DNA from: Chloroflexota bacterium
Lineage (GTDB): Bacteria > Chloroflexota > Anaerolineae > UBA4142
Direction: 5' to 3'
DNA length: 64,000 nt
Assembly (NCBI GenBank): GCA_016219275.1
Contig: JACRBM010000042.1
Location: 37,244-101,243 of the forward strand
In this document: in pieces, positions 5,853 to 16,069 of the stretch
How the letters are laid out: every line of letters starts with the position of its first letter
How positions within the stretch are numbered: the stretch's first letter is position 1
Translations under genes and position numbers: made by a program
The notes under the pieces: generated by a model
The model's input: only the letters and a program-made list of their open reading frames with translations
The model's database searches: none
What the model was told of the DNA's origin: nothing

Positions 5853-6039
5853 CGCGAATGCCGGTTTGGTTTGCGATCTCGGAGAGACGTTAAAATTTGT
5901 TTTCGAACGTGATCGCTTGCTCGTCGCCCTTGGTCGGTGATTCAACAACAAATTCCACGTCTGGCGTACATTCCGTACGCGCAGGACGAACTGTGGTTCG
6001 TGGATTGAGCGCGTGGATGCCGCCGCGCGATGAATCAAA

Positions 6040-6067
6040 AAGGGCAAACCGAACCCGGTATGCCCTT
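6040..6067 (-). terminator. intrinsic terminator of the hdr-chrA operon
   Basis: Read on the minus strand, AAGGGCA pairs with TGCCCTT around an inner CCGG/CCGG-type stem, and a run of five T follows. It lies about 25 bases past the stop of the last chrA gene. This is the expected place for a Rho-independent terminator of the operon running down from 14747. Confidence 0.75.
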
Positions 6068-6092
6068 GCGCTTCTTCGAGCGAAAAATCATT

Positions 6093-6623
6093 TTAACGCC
6101 ACAGCAAGCCAATCAACGCGCCGACGAGAATGAGCATCCACGCTTCGATTTTCGAGAACAACAGAATGCCCAGCGCCGCCAGCGCGAGGAGCACGGACAG
6201 CGGTTCCTGGATCATCGTCGTCGCCAGGCGCAACGAGACCGCGACCAACACGGCAACCGCCGCTGGCTTGACGCCGTTGAGAAACGCGCGCACCCAGCGC
6301 GAATGGCGGACGCGTTGAAAGTATCGCGTCGTCAGAATCACGAGCAAGATACCTGGCGCGTAAATCGCAATCGTCGCGACAAGCGCGCCGCCGATGCCGG
6401 CGACCTTGTAACCGACGAACGTCGCCAGAATCGTGATCGGACCGGGCGTGACCTGACCGAGCGCGAGACCGTCCAGAAATTCCTTGTGCGTCAGCCATTG
6501 CTGACCGATCACGATTTCATCTTCGATCAACGCGACGATGACCAAGCCGCCGCCAAAGATCAGCGCGCCCATCTTGGCGAACGTGATCGCGAGTTCCCAG
6601 AGTGTCATCAACTCCGGCGACAT
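6093..6623 (-). CDS. chrA: chromate transporter family protein, second half (ChrA domain)
   Basis: This 176-residue inner-membrane protein corresponds to one ChrA (PF02417) domain: FAKMGALIFGGGLVIVALIE near the start, then QVTPGPITILATFVGY, then repeated hydrophobic spans. The ATG at 6623 has GGGAG seven bases upstream. An alternative ATG at 6608 would overlap the previous stop as TGATG. The partner gene ends at 6608, so the pair forms a two-gene ChrA (short-chain type) acting as a heterodimer. The family is known for chromate export and, in some members, sulfate or other anion transport. It is the last gene of the Apr/Hdr operon, which suggests an anion linked to that redox chemistry. Confidence 0.85.
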   Translation of the reverse strand: MSPELMTLWELAITFAKMGALIFGGGLVIVALIEDEIVIGQQWLTHKEFLDGLALGQVTPGPITILATFVGYKVAGIGGALVATIAIYAPGILLVILTTRYFQRVRHSRWVRAFLNGVKPAAVAVLVAVSLRLATTMIQEPLSVLLALAALGILLFSKIEAWMLILVGALIGLLWR

Positions 6624-7147
6624 TGCCACCACTCCCAACCGATCCCCGCCACACCTGCGAGCAATAACACGACGACGATATTCGCGTTCAACGCGACAAT
6701 CGCCGCAAACACTAAAAGCGCGACGGCGATATGAAATCGTTGCGCGATCGCAGTGCGTCCCAGCCGATAGCATGAAACCAGGATGAGCGCGATGACGACC
6801 GGATTCATCCCCCACAAAATGCGCGTTGCCGCCGGGGTGTCGCCATATTCGAAATACAACGAACTCAAAACGAGGAGAATGGCGAATGCCGGAAAGAGGA
6901 AACCGAACGCGGCGATGAGCGCGCCGGGCAATCCTTTCAGGCGATAGCCGCAATACACCGCGACCATCGTCGCGGTGGGTCCCGGCAACATTTGGCACAT
7001 GCTCAAGCCCGCCAGAAAATCGTCGCGCGCGAGCCAGCCGCGTCGTTCGACGATTTCGTTCTGGATGTTGGAGATGTGCGCGACCATGCCGCCAAAACTG
7101 GTCGCGCCCAGTTTGAGAAACGCGTGCGCGAGTTGCAATGAGGTCAT
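6608..7147 (-). CDS. chrA: chromate transporter family protein, first half (ChrA domain)
   Basis: The 179-residue membrane protein is the N-terminal-type ChrA domain. It contains FLKLGATSFGGMVAHISNIQ, the CQMLPGPTATMVAVYCGY segment with the family PGP motif, and several membrane helices. Its ATG overlaps the hdrB stop as ATGA, so translation is coupled to the heterodisulfide reductase subunit. It overlaps the second ChrA half by 16 bases. Split ChrA proteins are known, but coupling to hdrB is unusual. Chromate, sulfate and sulfite are all possible substrates and cannot be separated from sequence alone. Confidence 0.85.
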   Translation of the reverse strand: MTSLQLAHAFLKLGATSFGGMVAHISNIQNEIVERRGWLARDDFLAGLSMCQMLPGPTATMVAVYCGYRLKGLPGALIAAFGFLFPAFAILLVLSSLYFEYGDTPAATRILWGMNPVVIALILVSCYRLGRTAIAQRFHIAVALLVFAAIVALNANIVVVLLLAGVAGIGWEWWQCRRS

Positions 7148-7950
7148 ATCCCAAATGCCGCCGTCATCAGTTGCGTAAAATACGAAACCTGGATGTTGTA
7201 TTTCACCCCGAAGCGTTTTTCGATCGTACTCTGCTTGTCGTCTAGACTCATTTTGCACAGCGGACACGCCACCGCAATGCGCCGCGCGCCGGCGTTCTGC
7301 GCTTCGTCTAACACGCGTCTGCTCGCGACGAGCGCCGCGTCGGGATGCGTAAGCAAAAGCGAGCCGCCGCAACAACGCGTCTTTGCGGCGAACGGCAACA
7401 CCGTCGCGCCGAGCGCGTTCAGCAAATCGTCGAGCATCATCGGATTCGCGTCCGACGCTTCAATCGCGATGTCGCGCGGGCGCGTGAGCAGACAGCCATA
7501 GTACGCCACGACGCGCAGGTCGCGCAAGGGTCGTGTCACTTTTTCCGCGATGCGCGCGAATCCAATCTCGCGCGCGAAGATTTCGAGCGGATGCGCGACG
7601 CGCACCGGTTCGGTGTACTCCAAGCCCAGCGATTTCAACGCCGCGTTCACGCGCGTGCGCGTCCCGGTGTCTTGCAACGCGTGCGCGGTGTGCGCGAGAT
7701 TATTGTAACACATACTGCACGGCGCGAAAAGTCGCGCCGATTTTTTTTGCGCGAGCGCGAGCGTGCGCGCCGCCAATGCCAACCCCAACGTTTCGTCGAG
7801 CGAACGCGCGGCGGTCGCGCCACAGCACGCCCAATCGCGCACCTCGGCGAGTTCGATTCCCAAATGTTTCGCGACGAGTTGAAACGATTGATCGTACGCG
7901 CGCGCCATTCCGTGGAGCGAGCATCCCGGCACGTATTGATACTGGGTCAT
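7144..7950 (-). CDS. hdrB: heterodisulfide reductase subunit B-like protein (HdrB)
   Basis: The 268-residue protein carries both CCG domains of HdrB. The first has GCSLHG near residue 9, WACCGATAAR near residue 41, and PCSMCYNNL. The second has YYGCLLTRP, CCGGSLL and CPLCKMSLD. These cysteines build the two non-cubane [4Fe-4S] clusters that reduce disulfides in methanogen Hdr, and all appear present. The ATG overlaps the hdrC stop by 4 bases, and the stop overlaps the ATG of chrA. In this operon HdrB would be the terminal electron acceptor or donor site facing a small thiol/disulfide or a linked partner. The physiological substrate in a bacterium with AprAB is unknown. Confidence 0.92.
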   Translation of the reverse strand: MTQYQYVPGCSLHGMARAYDQSFQLVAKHLGIELAEVRDWACCGATAARSLDETLGLALAARTLALAQKKSARLFAPCSMCYNNLAHTAHALQDTGTRTRVNAALKSLGLEYTEPVRVAHPLEIFAREIGFARIAEKVTRPLRDLRVVAYYGCLLTRPRDIAIEASDANPMMLDDLLNALGATVLPFAAKTRCCGGSLLLTHPDAALVASRRVLDEAQNAGARRIAVACPLCKMSLDDKQSTIEKRFGVKYNIQVSYFTQLMTAAFGI

Positions 7951-8459
7951 CGCGCCGACCCCTGAGCGAGAATTTCTTGAATCATGCGCGTGAGCGATTT
8001 GGCATCGTCAATCCTACCCGGCGCGAGCGCGAGTTCGCCGCGCCGCGCGAGCCGCAGTCCCATCTCGACGTGCGGCAACAACACGCTCATGCCGACGCGC
8101 CGCGCGTATGCTAGCATCAACTCCGGCTCGAACACGATGCCGCGCTTGCGAACGTTTTCGACAAACTCGCGATAGAACCACACGTTCGAATTGAGGATGC
8201 CGCGCGTTTCCGCAACGCGTTTGAGCCGCATCATCAAGTCCGCAATGTCAATCCCGCGCGGACAATATGTCGTGCAACTGTAGCAGGTCGCGCACAGCCA
8301 AAACGTATTCGCGTTGAGTGCGTCGTCCATGTAACCGAGCTGAATCAGTCGAATAAGCAAGCGCGGCGTGTGATCCATCGCGAACGCCATCGGGCATCCG
8401 CCCGCGCAGCGCCCGCACTGGTAACACGCTCGCGCAATGTTGGTGATTTGGGCATCCAT
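7947..8459 (-). CDS. hdrC: heterodisulfide reductase subunit C-like protein (HdrC)
   Basis: This 170-residue soluble ferredoxin-like protein has two classical [4Fe-4S] motifs. One is CYQCGRCAGGCP at about residues 12-23 and the other is CATCYSCTTYCPRG at about residues 56-69. It lacks membrane helices, so it is HdrC rather than the fused membrane QmoC type. Its start overlaps the HdrA stop as TAATG, and its end overlaps hdrB by 4 bases. It should carry electrons between HdrA and HdrB. Confidence 0.92.
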   Translation of the reverse strand: MDAQITNIARACYQCGRCAGGCPMAFAMDHTPRLLIRLIQLGYMDDALNANTFWLCATCYSCTTYCPRGIDIADLMMRLKRVAETRGILNSNVWFYREFVENVRKRGIVFEPELMLAYARRVGMSVLLPHVEMGLRLARRGELALAPGRIDDAKSLTRMIQEILAQGSAR

Positions 8460-10792
8460 TATTTGAACGGACTCGGTCCCAAACGGAGTAAATCAGTAAC
8501 GAAGGTCCGGATGTGTTGCGCGTACGCCGCCGCATCGTTGATGCCCAGGTTCAACATCTTGATTCGCTCCGGCTCGACCATCATGCGCTTGAGCGTCTCT
8601 TGCATATTCGCCAAGCGCGTCCGCGCGAGATCGCTCCCCTGGACGAAATGGCACTGCTTGGAATCGCATCCGAAAATCATCACGCCGTCAATCCCGGCGG
8701 AGAGCGCATCCGTCACCCACGCGACGTTGATCGAACCGGCGCACGGCGCCGGGATCGTCACGACATTCGCGGGATATACAAGCCCTTGTTGCCCGGCGAG
8801 ATCGGCGGCGGGATACGCGTCGTTCGCGCAGAGGAACGCGAGGATCGTCGGTTGTTCCTTGCCGGCAAACCCTGGATTGATCGCCGCGATCATTTGCGCG
8901 CCTTGCTTGATGCTGAAATTCTTGAGCGAGATTACGCGCATCGGACACGCGCCCTGGCAAATGCCGCACTGCCGGCATTTCAAATAATCCGGCGCGGGGT
9001 ACCCGGTCGCGTCCCAGTAGTACGCGTCGAACGGACACTCTTCCATGCACCGTTTGCACTTGTCACACTTGGTCTTGTCCAACACCGGCACCGTCGGACG
9101 AATTTCGATTTGCTGGCGCAACGACGCCATCGCCTTCATCGCCGCGCCACCCGCGCTTTTCACCGCGGTCATCACATCCATCGGACCCTGGGTCGCGCCC
9201 GCGGCGTAAATGCCGGCGCGTTGCGTATCGTACGGAAAACACTGGACATGCCCGGCGGCGAATCCGCCCGCCGATTGCGCGGTTGGCGAAATCGTTTGCG
9301 TCCACGCGCCATTCGGTTGGATGCCGGTCGCCAGCACAACCATATCCGCGCACAGTTCGATTTGCCGCGCAGACAAGGTGTCCTCCGCGCGCACGGTGAG
9401 TTGTTTCGTCGTCGCGTCTTCGACAATCTCGAATGGATTGCCGCGCACGAAAATCGCGCCATGCTTTTCTTGCGCTTCGCGATAGAGTAATTCCGCATCG
9501 CCAATCGCGCGCATGTCCATGTAGAACACCGTCACGCGCGCATCGGGATTCAGTTCTTTGATGTACGCGATTTGTTTGAGCGTGACCGCGCAGCAAATCT
9601 GCGAGCAGTACGGCAAGTGCGCGACATCGCGACTGCCGACGCACTGGATAAACGCGATGTCGCCGACCGGCGCGCCGTCGGACACGCGCGCGAGTGTGCC
9701 ATCGGTGAAGCCATCGCGCGACGCGACGCGTTCGAATTCGAGATTCGTCACGACGTTGGCGAATCGTCCATAGCCGTACCGCTCGACCGCGCGCGCGTCG
9801 AATGGTTCCCACCCTGTCGCCATCACGATGCCGCCGACGTTCACATTCTCGCGCGACGCGGTCGCGTCGAGTTGAATCGCGTGCGTGGGACACGCGCCGA
9901 CGCACGCGTTACAATCGGGCGGGCAGAGTTCACGATCAATCACGTACGCGCGCGGGTTGGCGAACGCGTGCGGCAGGTAAATCGCTTTGGTCGTCCGGCG
10001 TCCAAATTCAAACGGATCGCTCCGCGTGGCTGGGCACACCTCCGCACATTTGCCACACGCGTTGCATTGCGCCGCGTCCACATAGCGCGGCTCGCGGCGC
10101 AAGGTAACATCGAAATTTCCCGGCGAGCCGGCAATCGTCTCGACCTGGGTCTGCGTGTGCATCGCAACGCGCGCATCGCGTTTGGTCCGTTCGACGATAA
10201 AATCCACGCCGCACTGCGGCGGACACATGCGCGGGAAATACTTGTGCAAACCGACGACGCGCCCGCCGAGATACGGTTGTTTTTCGATCAGCGTCACTTG
10301 AACGCCGGCGGCAACGAGATCGGATGCTGCGCTCAACCCGGCGATGCCGCCGCCGACGACGAGCGCGCGGTTGACGCCGGGAAAAGTGAGCGGCGTTAAC
10401 GGTTCGAGCAAACGCGCTTTCGCCAGCGACATCGCGATCAGCGTTTTGGCTTTGCGCGTGGCTTGCTCCGGCGCGTCCGCGTGCGGCAACGCGCACTGCT
10501 CCAAGATGTTGCAGCGTTCGATGAGGTACGGATTCAGTCCAGCATCTGCCAATGCTTGCTCAATCGCCTCTTTGTGCGCGCGCGGCGAACACCCCGCGAT
10601 CACGACGCGATCAATCGCACCGCTCTGCATGTCCGCGCGCACCAGCGCGAGACCGTCGGCGCTACAAACATTCGCGTGCTCGCGACAAAGCGCGACGCCT
10701 TTCGCTTTCGTCAGTTCTTTCGCGAGCGCAGCCGTGACGATGACATTCGACACGCGTCCGTTGCACTGGCAAATGTACAGACCGATGGGCAT
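8459..10792 (-). CDS. hdrA: HdrA-like flavin Fe-S protein fused to an MvhD domain (QmoB-like)
   Basis: The ATG at 10792 follows AGGAG. A TTG three bases upstream is in frame but less likely. The 777-residue protein starts with an HdrA N-terminal domain (YICQCNGRV), then an FAD-binding GGGIAG motif near residue 147. Two [4Fe-4S] motifs lie between about residues 240 and 300 (CNACGKCAEVCP, CNACVGACP) and two more between about 590 and 630 (CDKCKRCMEECP, CRQCGICQGACP). The C-terminal ~130 residues match MvhD (PF02662), but the first Cys cluster is reduced to a single Cys (FLCAND). Four Cys remain, including FGCDSKQC. This architecture is that of QmoB or fused HdrA/MvhD. It accepts electrons via flavin and passes them along Fe-S clusters, possibly with bifurcation. 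Confidence 0.92.
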   Translation of the reverse strand: MPIGLYICQCNGRVSNVIVTAALAKELTKAKGVALCREHANVCSADGLALVRADMQSGAIDRVVIAGCSPRAHKEAIEQALADAGLNPYLIERCNILEQCALPHADAPEQATRKAKTLIAMSLAKARLLEPLTPLTFPGVNRALVVGGGIAGLSAASDLVAAGVQVTLIEKQPYLGGRVVGLHKYFPRMCPPQCGVDFIVERTKRDARVAMHTQTQVETIAGSPGNFDVTLRREPRYVDAAQCNACGKCAEVCPATRSDPFEFGRRTTKAIYLPHAFANPRAYVIDRELCPPDCNACVGACPTHAIQLDATASRENVNVGGIVMATGWEPFDARAVERYGYGRFANVVTNLEFERVASRDGFTDGTLARVSDGAPVGDIAFIQCVGSRDVAHLPYCSQICCAVTLKQIAYIKELNPDARVTVFYMDMRAIGDAELLYREAQEKHGAIFVRGNPFEIVEDATTKQLTVRAEDTLSARQIELCADMVVLATGIQPNGAWTQTISPTAQSAGGFAAGHVQCFPYDTQRAGIYAAGATQGPMDVMTAVKSAGGAAMKAMASLRQQIEIRPTVPVLDKTKCDKCKRCMEECPFDAYYWDATGYPAPDYLKCRQCGICQGACPMRVISLKNFSIKQGAQMIAAINPGFAGKEQPTILAFLCANDAYPAADLAGQQGLVYPANVVTIPAPCAGSINVAWVTDALSAGIDGVMIFGCDSKQCHFVQGSDLARTRLANMQETLKRMMVEPERIKMLNLGINDAAAYAQHIRTFVTDLLRLGPSPFK

Positions 10793-10808
10793 CAAGTACT
10801 CCTGAAAA

Positions 10809-10944
10809 TAGGACGCGGATTAACGCGGATAAAAATAAACGTAAGCATTCAGTTCATCCTGCCATTGCAAACACAGTGCGTTCGCAATGACACCCGACAG
10901 GTTTCAAATGAACATCCGCGTTTGTCCGCGTTCACCCGCGTCCA
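10809..10944. repeat. nested palindromic repeat between aprB and hdrA
   Basis: The outer arms GGACGCGGATTAACGCGGAT and the opposing CCGCGTTCACCCGCGTCC enclose a second, partly degraded element. That inner element runs from CCATTGC to TTCGCAATGACA (about 10861-10891) and belongs to the TGTCATTGCGAG family. One repeat appears to have landed inside the other. There is no gene in the 154-base gap. Confidence 0.6.
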
Positions 10945-10949
10945 AATTT

Positions 10950-11276
10950 TTACTCGTCGTTGCGTGTTCGGACGACGAAGCGTTCGACCTTGCCGTTGAT
11001 GTCCACGCAAGTCCAGGTGATCTTGTTCGTGCCCATCAGCGGAATCAGTTTCGCGCGATAGTAACCCAGTTGATACGGCGCTTTGGTTTCGAGCGCGCCT
11101 TGCGGGCAAATCTTGACGCACGACATACAATCCCAGCAATCACGCGGGGAATGGCAATATCCTTTTTTCGTCTCTAGGTGCAGCGTCATCAAATCGCCGG
11201 GACAGACTTGCTCGCAGAGCGGTTCGTGTTCGGCTTTGCACCCATCGCATTTGTTTACATTTACTCGTGGCGGCAT
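10950..11276 (-). CDS. aprB: adenylylsulfate reductase beta subunit-like ferredoxin (AprB), short form
   Basis: The 108-residue protein has the AprB cluster pattern. Cluster I ligands are Cys10, Cys13, Cys21 and Cys25, and cluster II ligands are Cys47, Cys50, Cys53 and Cys57. Trp48 next to cluster II is the residue seen in known AprB. The middle segment (CPQGALETK, PLMGTNKITWTC) also matches. Known AprB proteins are about 150 residues, and the extra ~40 residues form a tail that wraps around AprA. That tail is missing here, and the protein ends at RTRNDE before a normal stop. It lies between aprA and hdrA and should relay electrons between the AprA FAD and HdrA. Confidence 0.88.
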   Translation of the reverse strand: MPPRVNVNKCDGCKAEHEPLCEQVCPGDLMTLHLETKKGYCHSPRDCWDCMSCVKICPQGALETKAPYQLGYYRAKLIPLMGTNKITWTCVDINGKVERFVVRTRNDE

Positions 11277-11298
11277 AGCTCTCCTTCATAAAATTGCC

Positions 11299-11338
11299 AA
11301 AGGTGCCAAAGCAGAATTTTGGCATGTTTGGCACCTTT
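11299..11338. repeat. 12-bp-arm inverted repeat between aprA and aprB
   Basis: AAAGGTGCCAAA and TTTGGCACCTTT form perfect arms around a 16-base loop, in the 64-base gap after the aprA stop. The hairpin could tune the relative amounts of AprA and AprB, or it may be another dispersed repeat. Confidence 0.7.
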
Positions 11339-11340
11339 GT

Positions 11341-13095
11341 CTACGGTTTATACCGATCCCCCGGCACCATCTGCTCGTACGGTCGCGTGAACACATGCAC
11401 CGCGCCGGTTGCCGGGTCGCGTTTCGAGTTCACAAAGCAATCGAATTTCGCGTCGTTCTTTTCCGGAAAATCGGTGCGCGTTTGCCAACCGGGCCAGCGC
11501 GTCTCTTCGCGAAACAACAAGTGATGCAAGAGAACCTGGGCAACGTCGAGGCGATCCACAACCTCGTGCGCCTCCATCAACTCGTGCAGATTGTGGACGA
11601 CGAGATATTTCGTCTGGTCTTGGAGGATGCGGATATTCTTGAGCGCGTACTCCAACCCCTGGCGATTCATGCGGAAGAATTGATGGATGCCGCCGGCGTA
11701 CTCATCCATCAATCGTTGCATCCGTTCTTCCATCTCGCGCGGTGAAACGCCATCGTCCTCGACCTGGCGCACGGCGGGCGCGAACACGCGCGCCTTTTCA
11801 TACGCGATTTGTTGCGCGTCCACGTGTGGTGCGCTTTGCTTGGCGATGTACTCGACCGCGCCGCGCGCCGCGAGCATTCCTTCCGCCGCGCAGCCGCCGA
11901 CGAACTTGTTCGGCGCGCCGCCGGCGACATCGCCGGACGCAAAGAGACCCTGCATCGTCGTACTGCGTTTGACATCCACCCAGTACCCGCTCGCCGTATG
12001 CCCGCCGACGATGTACGGATCGTTGCCGTAAATTTCGATCGGCTCTTGGCTCACATCTTGCGCGCGACTCGCGAGGAACAAGACGAACGCCGGGCGCTCG
12101 TTGAGATAGTCCACCTTCATATCTTTGATCTGTTCCGGCGTCATGCCGCGTGTGTCCACGTAACACGGACCGCGCCCGGCGAGCCATTCTTCCATCGGCA
12201 CATTCGCGCGGATGAAACGCGGCGCGGATTCACCGCCGAGATGCGCGTAGCGTTCTTGCAAAACCTTTTCGCCTTGCGCGTTGATCATCGGCGTTTCGTA
12301 CCCGACCGAAATCGTGTCAATCGGTCCGTTGAAATCTTTCGTGCGCGTCGCGCACCAGCGCATCTCGAACGTCGTCATCTCCGCGCCGGCGCGAATGCCC
12401 ATCGCGTACCCCGTGCCGACGTTGAACGGGCAGTACCACAGTTGGTGATGACTGTCGATGCTGTCGGCTTGGTACGGTTTGTAGATGCCCGCCGCGCCGC
12501 CGGTCGAGACAATCGTCGCTTTCGCTTTGACGACGTAGAATTTGTTCTCGCGCACGCTAAAGCCCATCGCGCCGATCACGCGCGCGCCGTCGGTGAGAAA
12601 GTTGGTCGCGACGACGCGGTTGAGAATTTCGCAACCGTACTCGCGCACCTTTTCCGCGAGGATCACTTTCATCTCCGACCCTTTGATCGTAATGTCCCAC
12701 TTGCCGCGCGTGTGGTACTCGTCGCCGTCTTCCTCTTTGTCAATCGGCAAGCCCCACTTTTCCCATTCTTCGGTCGGTTGATTCAACACCTCAGCGAGCG
12801 TCGTCATCAAGTCTTCGCGAATGATGCCACCGGCTTGACTGCGACTCCAACGCACGAATTGTTCGACGGTGCGCCCTTTCTTGATGTAGGTGTTGATCGC
12901 GTCCATTCCGCCGGCGAGACAACCACTGCGATCAATGTGCGCTTTTTCCATCAAGGTCACGCGCAGTTGCGGATTTTGCTTTTTCGCTTCAATCGCGGCA
13001 AAGCATCCCGAATTGCCCGCGCCGATGATGAGCAAATCGGTATCGAGGACAACTTCTTGAACTTGGTCTACACTGCTTGGCAGTTTTTCAGTCAT
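11341..13095 (-). CDS. aprA: adenylylsulfate reductase alpha subunit-like flavoprotein (AprA)
   Basis: This 584-residue protein of the fumarate reductase/succinate dehydrogenase flavoprotein superfamily has the FAD motif GAGNSG at 25-30. It resembles AprA along its length, for example RSGCLAGGMDAINTYI, KWGLPIDK, GHTASGYWV and RKETRWPG-like FREETRWPG near the C-terminus. Comparing with the Archaeoglobus enzyme from memory, the AMP/FAD-site residues Asn74, Trp234, Arg265 and His398 correspond to Asn68, Trp220, Arg251 and His366 here. AprA interconverts APS with AMP plus sulfite. No sat or dsr is in the window, so the direction and true substrate stay open. It follows the DASS transporter and precedes aprB. 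Confidence 0.88.
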   Translation of the reverse strand: MTEKLPSSVDQVQEVVLDTDLLIIGAGNSGCFAAIEAKKQNPQLRVTLMEKAHIDRSGCLAGGMDAINTYIKKGRTVEQFVRWSRSQAGGIIREDLMTTLAEVLNQPTEEWEKWGLPIDKEEDGDEYHTRGKWDITIKGSEMKVILAEKVREYGCEILNRVVATNFLTDGARVIGAMGFSVRENKFYVVKAKATIVSTGGAAGIYKPYQADSIDSHHQLWYCPFNVGTGYAMGIRAGAEMTTFEMRWCATRTKDFNGPIDTISVGYETPMINAQGEKVLQERYAHLGGESAPRFIRANVPMEEWLAGRGPCYVDTRGMTPEQIKDMKVDYLNERPAFVLFLASRAQDVSQEPIEIYGNDPYIVGGHTASGYWVDVKRSTTMQGLFASGDVAGGAPNKFVGGCAAEGMLAARGAVEYIAKQSAPHVDAQQIAYEKARVFAPAVRQVEDDGVSPREMEERMQRLMDEYAGGIHQFFRMNRQGLEYALKNIRILQDQTKYLVVHNLHELMEAHEVVDRLDVAQVLLHHLLFREETRWPGWQTRTDFPEKNDAKFDCFVNSKRDPATGAVHVFTRPYEQMVPGDRYKP

Positions 13096-13128
13096 GGACT
13101 AAACTCCTTCATGTATCCAGACACATAG

Positions 13129-13242
13129 TGTCATTGCGAGGAGTGGAGCGACGACCCTGACACTTGCGTTCCCGCCAGAGCAAGTGAGCAATCTCCAACA
13201 AGCAAATGGGAGATTGCTTCGCACACTGCGCTCGCAATGACA
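13129..13242. repeat. TGTCATTGCGAG palindromic repeat
   Basis: Terminal arms TGTCATTGCGAG and CTCGCAATGACA bound a 114-base element with inner arms around GCAATCTCC/GGAGATTGC. It fills the gap between the DASS transporter and aprA. Other copies are at 18583-18663, 53808-53879 (variant) and inside the GH67 gene at 58524-58608. It looks like a MITE-like non-coding repeat. Confidence 0.8.
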
Positions 13243-13250
13243 ACGACGCG

Positions 13251-14747
13251 TCACTTGGTCAACGGAAATCCCAGCATCGCCATCCACGCGGTTTGCGCGA
13301 TGATGACGTAGATGTTGGCGATGATCGAAAGCGGAATGCCGAACTTCATTACCTTCCAACCCGATTCGCCGGACGCGCCCCACGCGATCATGAACGCGGT
13401 GATCGAGATCGGCAGGAAGAATGCGTAACTCAAGCAGTTGGTCGTGATGAGCGTAAAGGGCAGCAAGTTCATGCCCAGTTGTTGCGCCACGCCGACGGTC
13501 AACGGGATAAAGATCGCGCCGGTCGCAACCGCGCTGACGATGCCCGCGCGCGCGATGTGGAAACCGAACACCATGATCGCCAGGACGACGACGGCATTCA
13601 AACCCACCGCGCCCTTGAGCGGATTCACGATAAAGCCGGCGAGCCATTGACCGACGCCGCTCGTTTCCAACGCGCCGCTGAGTGAAATCGCGCCGCCGAG
13701 CAAAACCCACACGTCCCACATGATGTGCTTGTTGATTTCTTTAAAGTCGAGTTTGCCGAACGGCAAGAACAATAACAGCACGACGATCAAAGAGACGATG
13801 CCGGCGGTGATCGTGTGGAGCGAACCTTCCGTCACCCACATCGCCAAGCCGAGCAGGATGCACCCAATCGCCCAAATCTCCGGGCGCGTGATGCGACCCA
13901 GTTCTTGACGCAATTTTGGCAATTCAACTTCCGCGCCGGGAATTTCCAATTTGTTCAGTTTGAAAAACCAGACGACGTAGACGAACAGCACCGGGAGCAG
14001 ACCCCAGAGCGGAATGTTGTAGATGAACCAGTCCATCCACGTGATCGCGAGTTTTTGCGTTTGCTGAAAATGCGCAACGAGTTGCAGATTCGGGAAATGA
14101 CTGGTGAGAATCAGGGGGCCGGTAAAGAGCGGCACCAAACCGGTAATCATCAACAAGATCGCGGTGTTGATGCGTTTGCTCTCCGCGAGATGTTCTCTGC
14201 CGCGCATCAGCCCGGACACGCCTTTCGCGATCGGGAGAAAGAGCGCGGTCTCGCTTACGGTCGGCAGCACGCCGCCAATCGCCAAATCGGACAAGGACAG
14301 CCCCAACAGAATTCGCGTCACGCGCGCCGACTTGAGCGCGGTCGTGATGTTCAATGCGATTCGTTTGCCCAGAGGCGTGCCCATCATAATCGCGGCGATG
14401 ATAAACGCGCCAATCGCCAAAAAGAAACTGTCGCTCGTGAATGCTTTGAACGCGTCGGGAATTTTGAATCCTCCCAGGATTACGATCAATGCCGGACCGA
14501 CCAAGCCGACGACGGCTTTCGGCAGCGCGTCTGTGATCATACAAATGATGAACCACAGGAAAACCGCCAGCACCGTTTGCCCTTGCGGTTTCAAACCGAC
14601 GAGAGTCATGCCGGTCCAGGCGGGCGCGAAATGCAAAACAAACAAGACGCCGAAGGCAATTGCCAGCGCGGTGATTTGCTTTTTGAGCGCGACCTGCTCC
14701 TCCGCATCTGCCTGCGCGAGCGCCTGAACTACAGTTTGAGTCGCCAT
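13251..14747 (-). CDS. DASS/SLC13 family divalent anion:sodium symporter
   Basis: The 498-residue inner-membrane protein has about 11-12 hydrophobic spans and the DASS layout: cytoplasmic N-terminus, conserved VSETALFLPIAKGVSG segment in the first repeat, and a matching hydrophobic second repeat ending in TTNCLSYAFFLPISITA. The family imports sulfate, succinate, citrate or related divalent anions with sodium. As the first gene of the Apr/Hdr operon, sulfate or another sulfur oxyanion is the attractive guess, and a C4-dicarboxylate is the alternative. GAGGTAA lies seven to eight bases before the ATG. It is preceded by the regulated leader at 14771-15010. Confidence 0.88.
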   Translation of the reverse strand: MATQTVVQALAQADAEEQVALKKQITALAIAFGVLFVLHFAPAWTGMTLVGLKPQGQTVLAVFLWFIICMITDALPKAVVGLVGPALIVILGGFKIPDAFKAFTSDSFFLAIGAFIIAAIMMGTPLGKRIALNITTALKSARVTRILLGLSLSDLAIGGVLPTVSETALFLPIAKGVSGLMRGREHLAESKRINTAILLMITGLVPLFTGPLILTSHFPNLQLVAHFQQTQKLAITWMDWFIYNIPLWGLLPVLFVYVVWFFKLNKLEIPGAEVELPKLRQELGRITRPEIWAIGCILLGLAMWVTEGSLHTITAGIVSLIVVLLLFLPFGKLDFKEINKHIMWDVWVLLGGAISLSGALETSGVGQWLAGFIVNPLKGAVGLNAVVVLAIMVFGFHIARAGIVSAVATGAIFIPLTVGVAQQLGMNLLPFTLITTNCLSYAFFLPISITAFMIAWGASGESGWKVMKFGIPLSIIANIYVIIAQTAWMAMLGFPLTK

Positions 14748-15325: not shown

Positions 15326-16069
15326 TTACACGCGGTTGAGCATTTCGGCGGGTTTGAGAACAGTGATCCCTTTACGGGAAACGTGGATGATCCCATCTTT
15401 TTCCAGTTGCGCCAATGTTTCGCTGACGGTCTGTTGGCACGAACCGATCATCGCGGCGATTTGTTCTTGTGTGAGGCGCACCGGCACTTGGACCGGCGCG
15501 CTCCAGGACGCGGGATCCACGAGTTTGGAATAACTGAGATAGACGAGGAGTTTGAGCAGACGCGTCGTGACATCACACACCATCAAGTTTTCGATTTGCT
15601 CGCAGAGAAAGCGAATGCGCTGTCCCAGCGATTGCATCACGCGTTTGGCGAGGAGCGGCGAACGCGCCAACAAAGCATCCAAATTATCTTTGCTGATCTC
15701 GTAATAACAGCACTCGATTTGCGCCTGCGCGTTGCACTCGCGCTTGTTGTGCCCTTCGCCGACGACTTCTGCTAAACCAAACAGCTCACCCTCGCGACGC
15801 GTAAAAATTCCGGATTCTTTGCCGAACGGATTGATGCGACAAATGCGTACTTCGCCGCGCGCGAGATAGTACGCCGCGTCCGCCGCATCGCCCTGGAAGA
15901 AGATGAACGCATGGGGTTCGACTACGCGCTGGGTGGCGAGCGCAATAAAACTCGCTTTTTCTAAAGCCAGTCCTTCAAAGACATCTTGTTCGACGAGATG
16001 CCAATGCGCTTGCGCTTCACTCGGGTTGGTCGTTAATTTAATTGGGATCGCATTCTGATCGTTTGACAT
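15326..16069 (-). CDS. Crp/Fnr family transcriptional regulator
   Basis: The 247-residue protein has a cyclic-nucleotide-binding-type beta-roll at about residues 30-150 (FIFFQGDAADAAYYLARGEVRI, GELFGLAEVV), the long dimerisation helix, and a winged helix at about 170-240. Its recognition helix contains SCQQTVSETL. The three residues that CRP uses for DNA reading (Arg, Glu, Arg) are Gln, Gln and Glu here, so its site should differ from TTGTGA. It has several Cys (ECCYYE, LCEQIENLMVCD) but no obvious N-terminal Fe-S set. It lies directly upstream of the DASS-apr-hdr operon on the same strand and probably controls it. HcpR-like or CooA-like sensing is possible but unproven. Confidence 0.88.
   Translation of the reverse strand: MSNDQNAIPIKLTTNPSEAQAHWHLVEQDVFEGLALEKASFIALATQRVVEPHAFIFFQGDAADAAYYLARGEVRICRINPFGKESGIFTRREGELFGLAEVVGEGHNKRECNAQAQIECCYYEISKDNLDALLARSPLLAKRVMQSLGQRIRFLCEQIENLMVCDVTTRLLKLLVYLSYSKLVDPASWSAPVQVPVRLTQEQIAAMIGSCQQTVSETLAQLEKDGIIHVSRKGITVLKPAEMLNRV

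Follow-up and report, generated by a model that had tools for sequence, protein, structure and literature searches.

A conserved, transporter-linked AprAB paralogue joined to an HdrABC-type relay in a Chloroflexota genome

Introduction

What does a flavoprotein of the adenosine 5'-phosphosulfate (APS) reductase family do in a gene cluster that begins and ends with anion transporters? The question arises from a 64,000-nucleotide stretch of a Chloroflexota genome (GCA_016219275.1, contig JACRBM010000042.1, positions 37,244 to 101,243; hereafter the window), which is the end of contig C42 in an assembly of 6.16 Mb that is 97.9% complete. A cluster on its minus strand, running from 14747 to 6093, encodes in order a DASS-family transporter, AprA, AprB, an HdrA fused to an MvhD-like domain, HdrC, HdrB and two half-ChrA proteins, with a CRP-type regulator encoded upstream. 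The initial annotation took this for a dissimilatory APS-type pair in which sat and qmoA had been replaced, and also allowed for a substrate other than APS. It is instead an AprAB paralogue that is conserved and coupled to transporters, with a link to Dsr and, in several hosts, no dependence on Sat. The joining of an Apr-type reductase to an Hdr relay and anion transporters, its tie to sulfur oxyanions and the possibility of a non-APS substrate are all supported.

The distinction has practical consequences. aprA serves as a marker of sulfate reduction, and databases often name members of this clade 'adenylyl-sulfate reductase subunit alpha'; their presence in organisms in which no sulfate activation was found would make some aprA-based calls of sulfate reduction wrong.

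Results and Discussion

The AprA pocket and its clade

The window AprA shares with the dissimilatory APS reductase AprAB (TIGR02061/TIGR02060; 1JNR, 2FJA, 3GYX) its family, the pairing of a flavin adenine dinucleotide (FAD) subunit with a two-cluster beta subunit, and the catalytic residues. N74, W234, R265, R317 and H398 (A. fulgidus numbering), which we take to have the catalytic roles assigned to them in A. fulgidus AprA, are all present. The first four are conserved in all 84 rows of an alignment that combines AprAs longer than 500 aa from 80 genome loci (L084, in two pieces, dropped out) with one long AprA from L072, the window protein and three structures. H398 is conserved as well, save for one row with an unread base. 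In contrast to dissimilatory AprAB, the window clade has shorter alpha and beta subunits and a different pocket. At the sites that presumably form the APS pocket of canonical AprA (Y/M95, E/S141 and V-G-A-W-F-L at 273-278), the window protein has W at 95, R at 141 and I-D-T-I-S-V at 273-278, with D in place of Gln145.

These substitutions are not peculiar to one genome. Positions 95, 141, 145 and 274 read W-R-D-D in 59 of 59 clade rows (58 public loci and the window), throughout which W95, R141, D145, D274, T275 and S277 are invariant. Either I or V occupies position 273; I outnumbers L by 57 to 2 at 276 and V outnumbers I by 58 to 1 at 278, and there is variation at 143 and 144. A larger, 91-row set includes 63 W-R-D-D sequences, one of which (Pelosinus P0026) has L at 278. 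The four positions there are Y-E-Q-G (3) or M-S-Q-G (2) in the five canonical rows, Y-R-S-G in the PAPS (3'-phosphoadenosine 5'-phosphosulfate) reductase type (8), and Y-R-N-G in other short AprAs (15). One genome, Desulforudis G020, carries a third kind of AprA (L106:9759-15863; 599 aa, Y-R-N-G pocket) beside canonical aprBA-qmoAB, and has the W-R-D-D form as well.

With the pocket columns masked, the 91-row tree still places 63 of 63 W-R-D-D rows on one side of a single branch, with one change (SH-aLRT, the Shimodaira-Hasegawa-like branch test, 99); the tree has no outgroup, comes from a quick search with SH-aLRT support only, and joins L106_short2 to the canonical AprAs on long branches. 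The root of an earlier AprA tree was discarded, as its two distant SdhA-like root rows fell inside the Desulfovibrionaceae on long branches. The window AprA belongs to a clade separate from canonical APS reductase. It scores 392.5 bits against the canonical alpha-subunit model TIGR02061, below the cut-off of 641.75.

Its closest solved relatives are the AprAB-type PAPS reductase of Methanothermococcus thermolithotrophicus (8A8O, 541 bits) and then A. fulgidus AprA (339 bits). It resembles 8A8O in its short subunits and in having Arg and Lys at two pocket places, and differs in W133-D134 for R121-S122, in I-D-T-I-S-V for T-G-T-I-A-Q, and in its separate clade and transporter-linked context. According to the available text of PMC10322725, the 3'-phosphate of PAPS would collide with Gln145 of APS reductase, and Lys120, Arg121 and Ser122 mark the PAPS type; the window AprA retains the Lys of this loop and has Trp and Asp at the other two places. 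A further search with the Mailhella AprA returned 120 relatives, where named Desulfovibrionaceae or Deltaproteobacteria, and added no physiology.

Genomic context of the W-R-D-D clade

Genes were counted as near AprA up to 6 kb upstream and 9 kb downstream of it, or to the end of the locus where that came first. Context families were established by Pfam on examples only (TauE in L058, L061 and L064; TctA and TctC in L073; a PhnD-like protein in L046; DASS in L025 and L059), and the remaining loci were assigned to these by blastp. On this basis 54 of the 58 W-R-D-D loci have a same-strand transporter near AprA (DASS 39, TctA 9, TauE 6), and a CRP-type gene (51), an HdrA-like gene (27) or a PhnD-like gene (6) is also found; Sat is near AprA in none of the 58. 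Among 21 other short-AprA loci the corresponding counts are transporter 0, CRP 0 and Sat 10, and pocket and context therefore go together. The four loci with no transporter are L049 and L076 (short contigs), L055 (740 bases upstream) and L070 (10 kb, none). PhnD-like periplasmic binding proteins are encoded near AprA in L045, L046, L047, L051, L055 and L079, and may bind or sense the substrate.

The order is repeated in a sister Chloroflexota genome (L022), where DASS-AprA-AprB-HdrA-HdrC-HdrB-ChrN-ChrC-YeiH, a 250-aa open reading frame and DsrA lie on one strand with DsrB next. A chance assembly of genes is rejected on the strength of this shared order. Export by ChrA, which the initial annotation proposed, is not a general feature, as ChrA halves were seen in L022 only among the 58 related loci. 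A survey of 396 genomes of the class gave three matches: the window's own, one 29% identical protein, and one in G342, whose contig number and coordinates coincide with those of L022 in its genome. In AprA trees the two Chloroflexota proteins nest with Bacillota and Moorella, and this nesting, together with the restriction of close relatives to the window's genome and its sister among the 396, suggests horizontal transfer.

We found no description of the module in the literature, most subscription journals being outside the search; the family was found only as unassigned AprA-like paralogues. The divergent AprA-like paralogues of Diaforarchaea are a case in point, as L076 (MV2.Eury.2014, by name the MV2-Eury genome of that study) has the W-R-D-D pocket. 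The available text of PMC7174415 reports DsrAB and no Sat in these sulfite-reducing archaea and leaves the function of the paralogues open, and does not describe transporter, CRP or Hdr linkage for them.

Co-occurrence with canonical AprA, Sat and Dsr

Hosts of 50 of the 58 loci (all except L026, L049, L058, L062, L065, L067, L074 and L076) were surveyed, two being Desulfovibrio piger assemblies. A canonical AprA above cut-off is present as a second gene in 37, which favours a distinct paralogue. Sat was sought in 25 hosts, namely the 13 without canonical AprA above cut-off and 12 hand-picked from the 37, and was found in 2 of 13 versus 12 of 12 (one-sided Fisher 1.7e-5). The two are G024 and G001, the sister Chloroflexota, where Sat occurs as two long frames (881 and 898 aa) with an APS kinase about 3 kb from each.

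CysD above cut-off is absent from 17 of 17 genomes examined, the highest scores being in G019 (229 bits) and G002 (199 bits); in G019 there is additionally a second short AprA, as well as an APS kinase and a match to sulfite reductase on that contig. Five hosts are clean in all these respects, with no Sat, CysD at no more than 25 bits, no APS kinase, and dsrA above cut-off: the isolate G003 (Moorella stamsii), G013, G015, G017 and G040 (a small assembly). Across the survey dsrA is above cut-off in 47 of 50 hosts and matched below it in the others (a 196-bit fragment in G007, a full-length 327-bit match in G033, and pieces in D. piger G048, best 223 bits). Many hosts are named sulfate reducers.

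Organization of the gene cluster

The features of the cluster, all on the minus strand, are as follows.

15326-16069, minus strand: CRP/FNR-type regulator (PF00027 and PF13545), with homologues near related AprAs up to 55% identical.
13251-14747, minus strand: DASS-family anion symporter (PF00939 163 bits; TIGR00785 185.9, below the cut-off of 198.6).
11341-13095, minus strand: AprA-like flavoprotein of the W-R-D-D clade, 584 aa (NF005331 654.9 bits, passing the cut-off of 557).
11277-11340, minus strand: aprA-aprB gap of 64 bases with a strong inverted repeat (fold of 11277-11345, -21.0 kcal/mol).
10950-11276, minus strand: AprB-like two-cluster ferredoxin subunit, short form, 108 aa (phmmer to 1jnr_B, E 1.3e-27).
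8459-10792, minus strand: HdrA fused to an MvhD/FlpD-like domain, 777 aa, a predicted FAD and iron-sulfur electron hub (PF02662 and Fer4 domains, solved HdrA relatives, tree).
7947-8459, minus strand: HdrC with two [4Fe-4S] motifs (TIGR03290 87.6 bits, below the cut-off of 160).
7144-7950, minus strand: HdrB with two complete CCG motifs (motif match; PF02754 above cut-off in two stretches).
6608-7147, minus strand: N-terminal half of a split chromate/sulfate-type (CHR) transporter, one domain (PF02417 151 bits).
6093-6623, minus strand: C-terminal half of the CHR transporter, one domain (PF02417 157 bits).
6031-6092, minus strand: predicted intrinsic terminator (fold of 6031-6100, -23.5 kcal/mol, a stem followed by a T-run).

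All the genes named by the initial annotation lie in the order and on the strand it gave, and the tiny overlaps that it noted in the second half correspond to gaps of -1, -4, -4 and -16 bases, against 155, 64 and 157 bases in the first half. The terminator at the operon end also stands on its fold, a pattern scan having left it out of its output. Because a same-strand CRP homologue is near AprA in 51 of the 58 related loci, we extend the operon upstream to the CRP/FNR-type gene, which is likely the module's regulator. The DASS protein is predicted to import the substrate. The inverted repeat in the aprA-aprB gap could act in attenuation or serve as a processing site.

AprB scores 95.3 bits against TIGR02060 (cut-off 135.65) and has cysteines at 10, 13, 21, 25, 47, 50, 53 and 57. 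The features of an HdrABC-type relay are present, with two CCG motifs in HdrB, two [4Fe-4S] motifs in HdrC (cysteines 12, 15, 18, 22 and 56, 59, 62, 66) and FAD and iron-sulfur sites in HdrA; all three proteins score below the cut-offs of the NCBIfam HdrA, HdrB and HdrC models.

A word resembling a repetitive extragenic palindrome, GTCATTGCGARCGCA, occurs twice in the window (10877-10891 and 13227-13241; 0.01 expected), in the operon's two wide gaps, and the first half of the operon may therefore have been spread apart by repeat insertion.

Sulfur genes elsewhere in the host genome

The genome holds a single AprA, the next matches being only 23 and 25% identical. Its one ATP sulfurylase gene (sat) is on contig C12 (L005:7359-9980) and encodes 873 aa with a fused type I phosphodiesterase/nucleotide pyrophosphatase domain; an APS kinase gene follows on the same strand. 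A search of the genome for PF01507 proteins (CysH or CysD type) was negative. Contig C72 contains adjacent dsrA and dsrB, together with dsrD, dsrC, dsrM-like and dsrK genes and genes for a Rieske protein, a molybdopterin oxidoreductase and YeiH. DsrA (582.5 bits), DsrB (515), DsrC (117.5) and DsrK (520.6) are above cut-off, DsrD is just above (25.3 against 24.2), and DsrM is below (167.5 against 300). The set of the reductive Dsr pathway (dsrA, dsrB, dsrC, dsrM, dsrK and dsrD) is thus present. None of the eight HdrA matches of the genome is of QmoA or QmoB size, except a 351-aa sHdrA in an sHdr locus on C16; QmoC was not searched for.

The absence of sat and qmoA that had been noted for the cluster therefore holds there and fails, as to sat, for the genome as a whole. 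An intact sat-qmoA-dsrAB pathway elsewhere is found only in part: dsrAB is intact, sat lies beside APS kinase, and qmoA was not found.

The electron relay

Two long HdrA homologues are present in the genome, the window's and one beside a hydrogenase on C40, in addition to the short sHdrA on C16. A quick, midpoint-rooted HdrA tree of 27 rows groups the window HdrA-MvhD with the HdrAs of L022, L023 and Moorella stamsii (95) and then of other Bacillota hosts (85). HdrAs from the modules of Desulfobacterota and Nitrospirota are placed elsewhere in the tree, and the genome's own C40 HdrA is more distant. This scatter of module HdrAs indicates that the relay was probably assembled more than once.

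The relay resembles the QmoAB-HdrBC relay of Gram-positive sulfate reducers, in which an Hdr-type flavoprotein and HdrB/HdrC adjoin AprAB. It differs in having a single 777-aa HdrA-MvhD where L104 and L106 encode QmoA (413-426 aa) and QmoB (738-742 aa) as two proteins, and in its apparent place on a tree branch of its own next to theirs. Both types occur in Desulfofundulus thermosubterraneus, which has a canonical sat-aprBA-qmoAB-hdr cluster (L104) and, in a different place, a DASS-AprAB-HdrA cluster (L025).

Some hosts have an arrangement akin to the NADH-linked FlxABCD-HdrABC complex, with Flx-like partners following AprB-HdrA (L041:9584-12864, L043:14496-17328, L048:8897-11757). These sets comprise iron-sulfur proteins and an NAD-binding flavoprotein with a DHODB-type iron-sulfur domain; L041 also has a separate MvhD-like protein. 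This Flx-like NAD(P)H dehydrogenase set makes NAD(P)H the likely electron donor to the AprAB paralogue there. The module differs from FlxABCD-HdrABC in that its partner is AprAB, and the window's own cluster showed no Flx-like genes.

Proposed function and alternatives

The reading we favour, to which we would give an even chance, is a reductase that releases sulfite without spending ATP and is supplied by an importer and by Hdr. DASS would import a sulfur oxyanion, most likely thiosulfate, which the AprAB-like flavoprotein would split reductively at FAD to give sulfite. Following the precedent of APS reductase and its FAD-sulfite adduct, reduced FAD would likely attack the sulfonyl sulfur, with sulfide (from thiosulfate) leaving in place of adenosine monophosphate. 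HdrABC would likely supply the electrons, presumably handing them over to AprB, and DsrAB would likely reduce the sulfite to sulfide. Sulfite as the product is strongly suggested, with dsrA matched across the surveyed hosts and the sister operon continuing into dsrAB; the reaction direction, the substrate, the electron flow through Hdr and the transporter roles are what we infer from the genes.

Thiosulfate itself is a guess that draws on the chemistry, the transporters and a single gap in known physiology. It leads the candidates because Calderihabitans maritimus carries a W-R-D-D AprA (P0004), respires thiosulfate, and has no phs genes found in it. The available text of PMC7306483 lists thiosulfate, sulfite, Fe(III) and fumarate as its acceptors, reports that phs genes were not found, and describes the route of thiosulfate use as unknown; its main text, as available, contained neither of the terms apr and adenylylsulfate. 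Release of sulfite from thiosulfate or another sulfur anion would, if true, fill this printed gap, and would provide a sulfite source for Sat-free, Dsr-bearing organisms such as Moorella.

A fuller scenario is more tentative and, in our view, possible without being probable. It would have the APS-reductase fold rebuilt as a cytoplasmic thiosulfate reductase that passes sulfite to Dsr without molybdenum or ATP, with an importer and an Hdr or Hdr-Flx relay that could drive low-potential electrons by bifurcation, the whole having moved horizontally between Bacillota, Desulfobacterota, Nitrospirota, Chloroflexota and archaea.

Several observations weigh against a sulfite-releasing, Hdr-fed thiosulfate reductase. 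In nine loci the DASS slot is filled by a TctA-type transporter, a kind associated more with carboxylates and sulfocarboxylates than with thiosulfate. Only 27 of the 58 loci have an HdrA-like gene near AprA, and the Desulfovibrionaceae loci have none; Hdr is therefore not essential to the reaction. The module HdrAs do not form one group, and the window's set lies beside QmoA/QmoB of L104 and L106 (SH-aLRT 93, not starred). Some of the Sat absences (G006, G007, G033 and G040) may be assembly gaps, as G006 has a 208-bit fragment of canonical AprA, and G007, G024, G033 and G040 are assemblies of 1.2-1.8 Mb. An AlphaFold model of AprA (mean predicted local distance difference test score 75.4, below 50 in the pocket loops) is silent on the substrate and was not used as evidence. 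As to physiology, Calderihabitans also respires fumarate and Fe(III) (PMC7306483, available text). PhsAB and probably DsrAB reduce thiosulfate in D. alaskensis according to the available text of PMC4215793, such that thiosulfate use does not require W-R-D-D AprAB. Moorella carbonis used neither thiosulfate nor sulfite (PMC11328732, available text), gene carriage there not having been checked.

Two alternatives, each unlikely on present evidence, survive best. In the first, the genome would encode complete sulfate reduction with its genes dispersed between contigs (sat on C12, dsr on C72); AprAB would reduce APS or PAPS in that pathway, and HdrABC would replace Qmo. The genome's only AprA is this one, and sat, APS kinase and dsrABDC-MK are all present, so that both APS and PAPS are available. 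QmoAB-HdrBC relays are known in sulfate reducers (PMC10504309, available text), the window HdrA is next to QmoA/QmoB in the tree, and R130 and K132 occupy the places of Arg118 and Lys120 in the PAPS reductase of M. thermolithotrophicus. However, the pocket residues of both reductase types are replaced, Sat is near none of the 58 loci, and 11 of the 13 hosts without canonical AprA above cut-off lack Sat, five of them also lacking APS kinase and any CysD above 25 bits. The position of sat near APS kinase, in the host and twice in the sister, points to PAPS. Ordinary sulfate reduction as the family-wide function is rejected in view of the pocket and the Sat-free hosts, and is retained as a rival for the host genome. 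An assimilatory PAPS reductase was considered and set aside.

The second, which we hold to be no more probable than the first, is a reductive desulfonase, by which an organic sulfonate (e.g. a sulfocarboxylate) imported by DASS, TctABC or TauE would be split to sulfite. The sharing of one slot by DASS, TctA/TctC and TauE/SafE agrees with this, as does a sulfite product that fits Dsr, and the new acidic residues D134 and D260 could hold the organic part of the substrate. An unactivated C-S bond, however, would provide a poor leaving group for a flavin-sulfite mechanism, and no sulfonate-catabolism gene was recognised by eye in the gene clusters common to at least four loci, several of which were not Pfam-checked.

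An oxidative module, in which AprAB would oxidise sulfite from the host's sHdr-LbpA-like system with HdrABC as electron acceptor, is improbable. An sHdr-LbpA-like sulfur-oxidation locus is present on C16 (L018:6469-19581), in the same genome as the DsrD-bearing dsr locus, and encodes DsrE-like proteins, sHdrC1B1A, an HdrC-B fusion, EtfBA, two GcvH-like proteins and a lipoate ligase-like protein. This locus, with its DsrE, Etf and GcvH-like proteins, speaks for such a role; against it, DsrD is a reductive marker (albeit just above its cut-off), a dsrA match is present in 50 of 50 hosts, many of them named sulfate reducers, and Sat-free hosts presumably could not gain ATP in that way.

Least probable of all is a reductase of fumarate type acting on dicarboxylates that a symporter brings in, since, although AprA is within the fumarate reductase superfamily, DASS proteins carry dicarboxylates and Calderihabitans uses fumarate (PMC7306483, available text), AprA lacks the HPT motif and equivalents of His355 and Arg390 and so is not among the fumarate reductases, every host tested has a dsrA match, and TauE-type transporters fill the same slot.

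A formate dehydrogenase near the C40 HdrA

On C40, a formate dehydrogenase alpha gene (L019:16447-19590) lies near the HdrA, an MvhD-like match and the hydrogenase. It contains one in-frame TGA, in the context HQARI-U-HSATVAG, which likely encodes selenocysteine.

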